Source: Minisyncoccota bacterium
GTDB lineage: Bacteria > Pseudomonadota > Alphaproteobacteria > Elsterales > Elsteraceae
Reading direction: 5' to 3'
Length of the DNA stretch: 37,271 nt
NCBI GenBank assembly: GCA_030054295.1
Contig: JASGCE010000006.1
Coordinates: forward strand, 1 to 37,271
A program made the position numbers and the translations under genes. The notes beneath the pieces are model-generated. The model searched no databases. It was not told the origin of the DNA and saw nothing but the letters and a program-made list of their open reading frames with translations. Below, piece by piece: positions 12,210 to 15,027 of this stretch (position 1 is its first letter; the number at the start of each line of letters is the position of its first letter).

Positions 12210-12731
12210 ATGCAGGATAAAAGCGATGGGTCTTCCCTACGAAAACTAAACTGGATTGAGCTTCTTCATTTCATTCGGAATATTTATATCTCAAAAGGAT
12301 ATGAAATCGAAGAAATAGATGCAGACCTAGTTAATGAAATTTCAGACTGCCTCTATCGCACCTTGGCTGGATATGATGATCTCAATCCTGCAAAAACTGC
12401 TGGACATGTATGTTTTTGGGTCAGAAGGTTAAAACCTCTCCACCAGGAATCGACATCAGCTAAGAGGATGAAAGCATTAAATGAATTCATCGCAATCGAC
12501 CTCGCTCTCTTAATCTGTATTCAAAGAATATTAATTTACAATAAAACCGACTTGACATCCACCAAGGGTATTCAGTTTGCAAAGACTACTGTGGAACAAA
12601 TTCTCCCCTATCCCATCCGGAAAGACCTTGCCATTAGTATGAGGCATTACTCCCACTCTCCCCATGGTTTGGCGATGATTTTCGAGATTCTGTTTCGAGA
12701 CTACATAAATGAACTTCGTGGTCGGTCTTAA
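12210..12731 (+). CDS. Protein of unknown function, second gene of accessory cassette
   Basis: This 173-residue protein is predicted soluble and mostly helical. I do not recognise it with confidence. The most distinctive stretch is NPAKTAGHVCFWVRRLKPLH (about residues 59-78), followed by KRMKALNEFIAIDLALLI. The C-terminus contains RHYSHSPHGLAMIFEILFRDYI. Codon use differs from the flanking genes, with frequent ATA, TTA, AGA and AAA, and the region is AT-richer. Together with the adjacent MITE-like element and the disruption of the usual ruvX-pyrB junction, this suggests horizontal acquisition. The ATG is preceded by AGAGGTAA at close spacing. Toxin, defence or regulatory roles are all possible, and none is supported directly. 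Confidence 0.65.
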   Translation: MQDKSDGSSLRKLNWIELLHFIRNIYISKGYEIEEIDADLVNEISDCLYRTLAGYDDLNPAKTAGHVCFWVRRLKPLHQESTSAKRMKALNEFIAIDLALLICIQRILIYNKTDLTSTKGIQFAKTTVEQILPYPIRKDLAISMRHYSHSPHGLAMIFEILFRDYINELRGRS

Positions 12732-12791: not shown

Positions 12792-13733
12792 ATGAAATCA
12801 ATCAACCGGCGCGATACCCCTTCGGCTTCTTCTCGGCATTTGCTGGGCATAGGGTCTATGGCGGCGAGCGAGATCATCAAACTGATGGATCGGTCTGAAT
12901 ATTATTTGGATTCGCCGCCCACAACCGACCATAAAAAGACCTTGCAGGGTAAAACCGTCATTAATCTGTTCTACGAGAATTCGACCCGCACCCGCACTTC
13001 ATTTGAATTGGCGAGTCTCAAACTCGGGGCCAATGTGATTAACATGACCGTCGATAGTTCCTCGGTCAAAAAGGGCGAGACCTTGATTGATACGGCCATG
13101 ACCCTGAATGCCATGCACCCCGACCTGTTGGTGGCGCGGCATGGGGATTCGGGGGCGGTTCATCTGCTGGCCGATAAGGTTGATTGCTCGGTCATCAATG
13201 CGGGGGACGGTCGGAACGAACATCCGACCCAGGCCCTGCTCGATGCCTTGACCATTCGTCGTTATAAAAAAAATCTGGCGGGCTTGACCATCGCCATCTG
13301 TGGCGACATAGCCCATAGTCGGGTGGCGCGGTCGAATATCTACCTGCTGACCAAGATGGGGGCACGGATTCGCGCTGTCGCCCCCGCTACCCTGCTGCCA
13401 AGTCAGATACAAAAATTGGGTGTCGAGGTTTACCACACCATGGCCGAGGGAATTGCCGACTGCGACATCATCATGATGCTGCGCCTGCAATCGGAGCGGA
13501 TGGATTCGGCACTGGTACCATCAAAACGCGAATATTTTCATTTTTTTGGGCTGGATAGTCGGTTCTTGGCCCTTGCCAAGCCCGATGCTCTGGTCATGCA
13601 TCCGGGGCCGATGAATCGCGGGGTGGAGATTGACTCGGTCATTGCCGACGATATTCGCCGCAGCCTGATTCGTCCGCAGGTCGAGGCAGGGGTAGCAGTC
13701 CGCATGGCGGTGATGGAAAGCCTGGTGGCATAG
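12792..13733 (+). CDS. pyrB: Aspartate carbamoyltransferase catalytic subunit
   Basis: PyrB condenses carbamoyl phosphate with aspartate to give carbamoyl aspartate, the committed step of pyrimidine synthesis. The carbamoyl-phosphate site is intact: STRTRT at residues 64-69, then the 80s-loop Ser/Lys in SSVKKGET (about 90-97), ARHGDSG (115-121) and HPTQ at 144-147. The aspartate-binding LQSER and HPGPMNRG motifs are in the C-terminal domain. The 313-residue length is normal for the class whose catalytic trimers associate with dihydroorotase-like partners. The next gene starts 1 nt after the stop, consistent with a joint complex. No pyrI regulatory-chain gene is nearby. There is no strong Shine-Dalgarno before the ATG. 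Confidence 0.97.
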
Positions 13734-13734
13734 A

Positions 13735-15027
13735 ATGACACAAAAACCGCAATCCAGATTAATCCGTGGTGCAAGGCTGGTCGATTCCATTCAGACCAGC
13801 GACTCCCCCCAAGACCTACTGATTATCGATGGCAAGATTGCCGAGATCGGGGAGACTATCTCTGCCCCACCGCAGACCGAAACCATCGATGCGGCGGGAT
13901 TATATATTGCCCCCGGCCTCATCGACATCAGGGTTCAAACCCGCGAGCCGGGTGGCGAGCATGAGGAGACTCTGGAATCGGCGGTCGAATCGGCGGTGGC
14001 GGGTGGCATTACCCAGCTGATCTGTCTGCCCAATACCGACCCGCCGCTCGATGAGCCAGCCTTGATTGCCTGGATTCGCCAGCGCGGTCAATCCCTCGGC
14101 AAGACCCGAATTCACGCCTATGGCAGTCTGACCAAAGGTCGTCGCGGCGAGCAGCTGGCCGAGATGGGTCTGTTGCAAGAATCGGGTGCCATTGGCTTTA
14201 CCGATTCGCCGCAAGCGATTGGTTCAGCGCGGTTGATGGTTCAGGCCCTTAAATATGCGCGGGGATTTAACAGTCTGGTTCTCAGCCACCCTGAGGAGCC
14301 AAGCCTGGCCAGCGGTATGATGAATGAAGGGGAACTGGCGACCCGTTTAGGTCTGGCCGGTCGCTCATCTCTCGCCGAGACCCTGCTGGTGGAGCGCGAC
14401 TGCCTTATCAGCGAAGCCACCGGCAGTCGGCTCCATATTGGGCCCGTAACCTCGGCTGCGGCGATTGATGCCATTCGCCGCGCCAAAGCCCGCGGGGCTC
14501 GGGTGTCCTGCGACACGGCAGCCCATTACTTTACCCTGACCGAAATGGCGGTGGGCAATTGGCGCAGCTTTGCCAAGGTCGCTCCCCCATTGCGGTCGGA
14601 ATCTGACCGTCTGGCGGTGATTGCGGGATTAAAGGATGGCACCATCGATGCCGTCAGTTCTGACCATTCACCGCGAGCCCCCGACAGTAAAAGACTCCCC
14701 TTTGCTCAGGCGTCATTTGGCATGGTTGGACTCGAGACTCTGTTTCCTCTCACCCTTGATCTGTTTCATCATCATGGCTTTACCCTGGCTCAGGCACTAT
14801 CCTTGGTGACTGCAAAACCAGCGGCAATTGTTGATATCAAGGGTGGAACAATAGACAAGGGGGAACCAGCCGATTTAATCATTTTTGATCCGAACCAAGA
14901 CTGGAAAATCGACCCGGAACAGTTTAAATCCCGTTCCAAAAACAGCCCGTTGCTGGAATATCCGGTAAAGGGTAGAATTCACCAGACCCTGATCGCGGGT
15001 AGGGTTGTTTATCAGCACCAACCATAA
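13735..15027 (+). CDS. Dihydroorotase-like protein lacking zinc ligands (probable non-catalytic partner of PyrB)
   Basis: This is a class I dihydroorotase homologue of 430 residues with the usual amidohydrolase barrel. The core motifs are GLYIAPGLIDIRVQTREPG, CLPNTDPPLD, MNEGELATRLGL and SSDHSPRAPDSKRLPF. The metal-binding signature Asp-x-His-x-His is replaced by Asp64-Ile-Arg66-Val-Gln68. The position usually occupied by the His of HVS reads GPVTS (Pro237). Asp157, His185, His264 and Asp310 are retained. Enzymes with this pattern (PyrC' of Pseudomonas, and the pyrB-linked copies in Alphaproteobacteria) are known as structural, non-catalytic subunits that support PyrB. A catalytically competent dihydroorotase would then have to be encoded elsewhere. 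The gene lies 1 nt after pyrB. Databases often label such proteins pyrC. Confidence 0.9.
   Translation: MTQKPQSRLIRGARLVDSIQTSDSPQDLLIIDGKIAEIGETISAPPQTETIDAAGLYIAPGLIDIRVQTREPGGEHEETLESAVESAVAGGITQLICLPNTDPPLDEPALIAWIRQRGQSLGKTRIHAYGSLTKGRRGEQLAEMGLLQESGAIGFTDSPQAIGSARLMVQALKYARGFNSLVLSHPEEPSLASGMMNEGELATRLGLAGRSSLAETLLVERDCLISEATGSRLHIGPVTSAAAIDAIRRAKARGARVSCDTAAHYFTLTEMAVGNWRSFAKVAPPLRSESDRLAVIAGLKDGTIDAVSSDHSPRAPDSKRLPFAQASFGMVGLETLFPLTLDLFHHHGFTLAQALSLVTAKPAAIVDIKGGTIDKGEPADLIIFDPNQDWKIDPEQFKSRSKNSPLLEYPVKGRIHQTLIAGRVVYQHQP

Follow-up and report, generated by a model that had tools for sequence, protein, structure and literature searches.

Inactive partners of aspartate transcarbamoylase that are encoded beside pyrB and resemble dihydroorotase are already known, and they are common in the bacterial class to which the organism studied here belongs. 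The class A2 partner of Pseudomonas, PyrX/PyrC' (pDHO), is described as an inactive dihydroorotase homologue of about 45 kDa (PMC7053772), and a separate active PyrC is reported from the same cell (PMC2770081). According to PMC7053772, the aspartate transcarbamoylase chain of P. aeruginosa remains an inactive monomer unless it is supplied with the pDHO dimer, itself inactive, with which it forms a dodecamer. Disruption of the pyrB-linked S. meliloti gene smc01361, as reported in PMC5929573, resulted in pyrimidine auxotrophy despite the presence of a separate essential PyrC; its authors proposed from context that the gene product is an inactive PyrX. The class A1 PyrC-PyrB reactor of Aquifex aeolicus (3d6n and 4bjh) has the same fold and the same partner enzyme, but its PyrC, in which His61-x-His63 is retained, is a zinc-binding protein with activity in the complex (PMC3880350). 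The same source describes an alpha zinc held by His61, His63, and Asp153, with Asp305 at a distance of 2.7 Å, and a metal-free enzyme that is inactive; the beta-site histidines are dispensable there, the His232Ala mutant being active. An inactive dihydroorotase fold that is joined to aspartate transcarbamoylase and has lost its zinc ligands is also described for the pseudo-DHO of yeast and Chaetomium, which, however, is a domain of a fused eukaryotic CPSase-ATCase and not a separate bacterial chain (PMC7053772).

We analyzed a pyrB-linked dihydroorotase homologue encoded in the window, that is, in the whole 37,271-nucleotide stretch of DNA under study. Compared by description, its product (the window protein) resembles the Pseudomonas partner, from which we infer its role, and it shares with smc01361 the class, the linkage to pyrB, and a separate PyrC; the likeness to the eukaryotic domain is likewise one of description. 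We describe the degeneration of its metal site, its pairing with pyrB, its predicted fold, and a second dihydroorotase in the genome. Taken together, these features make it highly likely that the window protein is the noncatalytic PyrX/PyrC' subunit of a class A2 aspartate transcarbamoylase, which would no longer bind the alpha-site zinc or make dihydroorotate and would be kept for the assembly of PyrB.

The pyrB-linked gene pair and its family assignment

The stop codon of pyrB (13731-13733) and the ATG start codon of the downstream homologue, at 13735, are separated by a single base (Table 1). The pyrB product scored over the cut-offs of both NF002032 (390 bits; cut-off, 263) and TIGR00670 (288 bits; cut-off, 237), and it is the only full-length PyrB in the assembly, the other match being just 29% identical. 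Upstream of this pair, between ruvX and pyrB, there is a 173-aa frame (12210-12731, +) with no Pfam match, in a stretch that is AT rich (G+C of 0.37-0.41 versus about 0.53-0.62 over pyrB and pyrC'). A homologue search of 20 other genomes found none for this frame, which is possibly an acquired orphan gene.

Table 1. Positions in the window of the gene pair and of the metal- and substrate-site codons
Feature	Coordinates	Strand	Description	Basis
pyrB	12792..13733	+	Aspartate carbamoyltransferase catalytic chain, 313 aa	NF002032 and TIGR00670 over cut-off
pyrC'/pyrX	13735..15027	+	430-aa homologue of type I dihydroorotase; metal site degenerate	Profile, alignment, model
R66-V67-Q68	13930..13938	+	Site of His-x-His (alpha-site zinc) in active enzymes	Alignments, codons
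D157	14203..14205	+	Kept; Aquifex Asp153, alpha-site ligand	phmmer and MAFFT alignments
H185	14287..14289	+	Kept; Aquifex His180, beta site	phmmer and MAFFT alignments
P237	14443..14445	+	His lost; Aquifex His232, beta site	Alignment
D310	14662..14664	+	Kept; Aquifex Asp305	phmmer and MAFFT alignments
R314	14674..14676	+	His in 21/21 rows with intact His-x-His	Alignment

Against TIGR00857, the general 'dihydroorotase' model, the window protein scored 340.9 bits (NCBIfam cut-off, 279.05) over positions 6-411 of 412, and an automatic pipeline would therefore name it dihydroorotase. It stayed under the cut-offs of the curated NCBIfam dihydroorotase equivalogs PRK07627 (428.7 versus 442 bits) and PRK09059 (415.4 versus 645 bits). 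The initial annotation had warned against transferring the name pyrC to this gene, and the TIGR00857 score bears out that hazard. Indeed, the assignment is an annotation trap: a standard model says dihydroorotase of a protein that, judging from its residues, is very probably not one, the real enzyme being encoded elsewhere. An AlphaFold2 model of the window protein, built from 56 window and locus sequences, reached a mean pLDDT of 95.5. Its top structural matches were 4bjh and 3d6n, the complex of dihydroorotase with aspartate transcarbamoylase from Aquifex (Z of 61; root mean square deviation of 1.4 Å over 421 residues), and the amidohydrolase fold is thus predicted to be intact.

Metal-site residues of the window protein

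The residues of the window protein were mapped by phmmer and MAFFT alignments against Aquifex PyrC (3d6n/1xrf), whose numbering was taken from PMC3880350. The His-x-His alpha-site pair of the active type I dihydroorotases (class A1, of the Aquifex kind) was absent from the window protein, which has R-V-Q instead; R66 (agg, 13930-13932) and Q68 (caa, 13936-13938) align with Aquifex His61 and His63. Both alpha-site histidines are thus missing while the third alpha-site ligand, D157, is kept, as are the arginine of the HxHxR motif (Arg70) and the asparagine of PNT (position 100). The position of the HVS histidine is occupied by P237 (ccc, 14443-14445), and R314 stands where, in the rows with an intact pair, there is always a histidine that we take to be the equivalent of His254, which binds the substrate in E. 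coli PyrC. The initial annotation had read the same residues, namely, Arg66-Val-Gln68 for His-x-His and Pro237 for the HVS histidine, with Asp157, His185, and Asp310 remaining, and the alignments and codons confirmed these residues as well as their coordinates. Its broader statement that the zinc-binding histidines had been lost is correct for three of the four and has to be narrowed for the fourth, H185, which is kept.

A sequencing slip is unlikely to be the source of these residue changes, since other genomes of the same family (rows L009, L010, and L145) share R-x-Q together with proline and since all eight readable rows of the family have Pro237. This proline was found in none of the other rows read at that position; it occurred in 7 of 111 rows, all from the window's own family, f1, and in the added f1 row L145. 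As evidence for inactivity, P237 was considered and found weak. Because Aquifex PyrC can do without its beta-site histidines (PMC3880350), the loss at position 237 proves little, and the argument is carried by the lost alpha-site pair; moreover, 61 of 90 degenerate rows retain both H185 and H237.

Likelihood of residual dihydroorotase activity

The loss of zinc ligands alone is no proof of inactivity. A PyrC paralogue that is predicted to be Zur regulated and lacks the conserved zinc residues showed activity, as reported in PMC2770081. A further caution comes from the second dihydroorotase of the PRK09060 type in alphaproteobacteria, which has Gln-x-His in seven of the eight copies read (L048-L051, L134, L135, and L148; L149 has His-x-His) and in which positions 185, 237, and 314 are histidine and position 310 is aspartate. 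Since no second candidate other than this type was found in the genomes of many relatives, the Gln-x-His enzymes are presumably active, and one missing histidine is consequently too little to call an enzyme dead. One pyrB-linked copy, in a 2.0-Mb MAG (L077:2986-4266, +), has Gln-Val-His with all other ligands intact. A second dihydroorotase was looked for in the L077 genome and none was found; either this copy is a working enzyme short of one histidine or the genome is incomplete.

With these cases in mind, we considered the possibility that the window protein is itself a working dihydroorotase whose unusual site takes up one metal ion through D157, D310, H185, and perhaps Q68 and which is active only inside the PyrB complex. 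The persistence of D157, H185, and D310 speaks for such an enzyme and may allow the protein some metal binding. Moreover, the presumably active Gln-x-His enzymes of relatives also miss an alpha-site histidine, the paralogue mentioned above was active, and the Aquifex enzyme depends on its partner for activity (PMC3880350). We nevertheless regard this possibility as improbable, because neither alpha-site histidine is left, arginine having replaced one of them, because arginine also stands for the invariant histidine at 314, because a complete PyrC is present in the genome, and because the active-site columns are loose across the degenerate relatives. Indeed, the columns that loosen most from intact to degenerate copies (111 rows) include 159, 68, 312, 314, 237, and 100, which are located within or next to the metal and substrate site. 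Unlike the one-histidine losses, the window protein lacks both alpha-site histidines and the histidine at 314 together.

Arginine at position 66

Position 66 differs from the loosened columns in that arginine is found there in 80 of 90 degenerate rows. A tentative reading is that the metal site has been rebuilt, with Arg66 replacing the alpha zinc and neutralizing Asp157 and Asp310, such that the fold and the scaffold for PyrB would remain stable without metal; we consider this possible, although we lean against it. If it were true, a guanidinium in place of the metal would explain why the arginine and both aspartates stay together. Both aspartates are kept in 78 of 99 degenerate rows (121 rows in all), and 77 of these 78 have R66, the remaining one being L077, the Gln-x-His copy that is possibly still active. 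Degenerate rows without both aspartates have R66 in only 7 of 21 cases and another residue in 14. The link between R66 and D157/D310 is unproven, since the tree provides only three independent contrasts (sign test, P = 0.25).

Selection on the degenerate copies

Relaxed active-site columns would also be expected if the gene were a decaying, functionless leftover that persists solely because it lies in the pyrB operon. This we consider very improbable. The open reading frame is full length, its product is modeled with the high confidence given above, and dN/dS (NG86) was 0.02-0.16 in eight pairwise comparisons of degenerate copies, with a single genus of the window's family supplying three of the pairs; these values indicate that the degenerate protein is maintained. 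The gene also adjoins pyrB across the class, pyrB being found on the same strand near the pyrC' homologue in 29 of 30 rows from the relatives and in 77 of 80 named rows, and disruption of the S. meliloti gene led to auxotrophy (PMC5929573). Nor does the maintained protein seem to have taken on another amidohydrolase activity, for which the predicted intact fold would provide the framework. Without the HxH pair, the usual metal site of the fold is absent, and the substitutions vary widely (positions 66 and 68 carry 17 different residue pairs among 90 degenerate rows), unlike what a new shared active site would show; we give such an activity hardly any credence.

Rather, maintenance of a protein with a degenerate site is in keeping with the noncatalytic subunit that the initial annotation had proposed as a partner of aspartate carbamoyltransferase, a proposal that the degenerate site, the linkage to pyrB, and the separate PyrC all support, with the inactivity itself argued from residues. 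Such a subunit would be retained because PyrB needs it to assemble. By analogy with the published relatives, two PyrB trimers would be held together by three dimers of the window protein in a dodecamer, and PyrB alone would be inactive or unstable.

A second dihydroorotase in the same assembly

The assembly that contains the window (G000; 2.72 Mb, 355 contigs, 95.5% complete) encodes a type II PyrC on another contig (G000:C193:4479-5510). This was the only protein over the TIGR00856 cut-off (432 versus 293 bits), and its nearest solved structures are those of type II enzymes, 4lfy and 1j79 among them. Its metal motifs are complete (H14-L-H16, K103, H140, H178, and D252); the ligands of E. coli PyrC are given in PMC2770081 as His16, His18, Lys102, His139, His177, and Asp250. 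It had been predicted that the cell needs a second dihydroorotase elsewhere, and the C193 protein, with its intact HxH, answers to that prediction. Since its motifs are intact, this type II PyrC would be the enzyme that carries the dihydroorotase step.

A third homologue, on contig C171 (29% identity), was rejected as a dihydroorotase, as it scored over the TIGR02033 cut-off and was assigned as a dihydropyrimidinase. Likewise, a zinc chaperone (COG0523) was rejected as the identity of the gene at L003:2780-3787, which neighbors the presumably active pyrC; its product scored over the TIGR02475 cut-off and was assigned as CobW. Profile searches of the assembly for pyrE with TIGR00336 and TIGR01367 gave no match, and both models matched in all 14 control genomes; given the completeness and the number of contigs of the assembly, a gap probably explains the missing gene.

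Co-occurrence of a degenerate copy with a second dihydroorotase

Sixty related genomes were sampled, 41 of which had the PyrC' type; three others (G027, G029, and G056) were dropped from this count as weak matches only (E values of 1e-27 to 7e-34). The His-x-His pair was readable in 40 of the 41 pyrB-linked copies and was lost in 39, the one intact copy being that of G041 (row L138). Among 80 named loci, the pair was intact in 20 and not in 60. The intact rows came from Geobacter and other deltaproteobacteria, clostridia, and similar organisms, and also from three alphaproteobacterial MAGs (L079, L088, and L091). A degenerate pyrB-linked dihydroorotase is a class-wide condition.

A second dihydroorotase was counted when a protein scored over the curated cut-off of TIGR00856 or PRK09060. 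By this measure, one was present in 36 of the 39 related genomes whose copy is degenerate; the three genomes without one (G003, G019, and G031) were 83%, 77%, and 71% complete. For the named loci, 38 of the 80 were tested, a choice that covered every one of the 20 intact copies as well as L077 and 17 degenerate copies, and a second dihydroorotase was found with 17 of 17 degenerate copies and 0 of 20 intact copies. When the two samples were combined, a second dihydroorotase was present in 51 of the 54 genomes that carry a degenerate copy compared to 1 of the 21 that carry an intact copy; L077 was set apart from the 54, and two genomes common to both samples were recognized because their contig places are identical (G047/G063 and G024/G067). 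Loss of His-x-His thus goes with having a second dihydroorotase among the sampled relatives. Neither direction holds as a strict rule: an intact copy does not always mean that there is no second enzyme, as G041 has both, and a degenerate copy does not always mean that there is one, since the three incomplete genomes and L077 were without it.

The counts rest on few independent events, since only two changes of the His-x-His state were needed on the tree of 111 rows, and again two with 121 rows. The trees were made with the 'quick' method; that of 121 rows left out L147 (partial, with an unreadable metal pair) and L148 and L149 (of the second-enzyme type). The row of the window protein joined long betaproteobacterial branches in the tree of 111 rows, which is possibly an artifact, and nothing was drawn from its position; when L145 was added, the two rows paired, with betaproteobacteria still nearby under the same method.

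The exception, G041, carries pyrB with an intact His-x-His copy (L150:543-2921, +) and also a PRK09060-type dihydroorotase. Such a combination is as expected of a stage before the loss.
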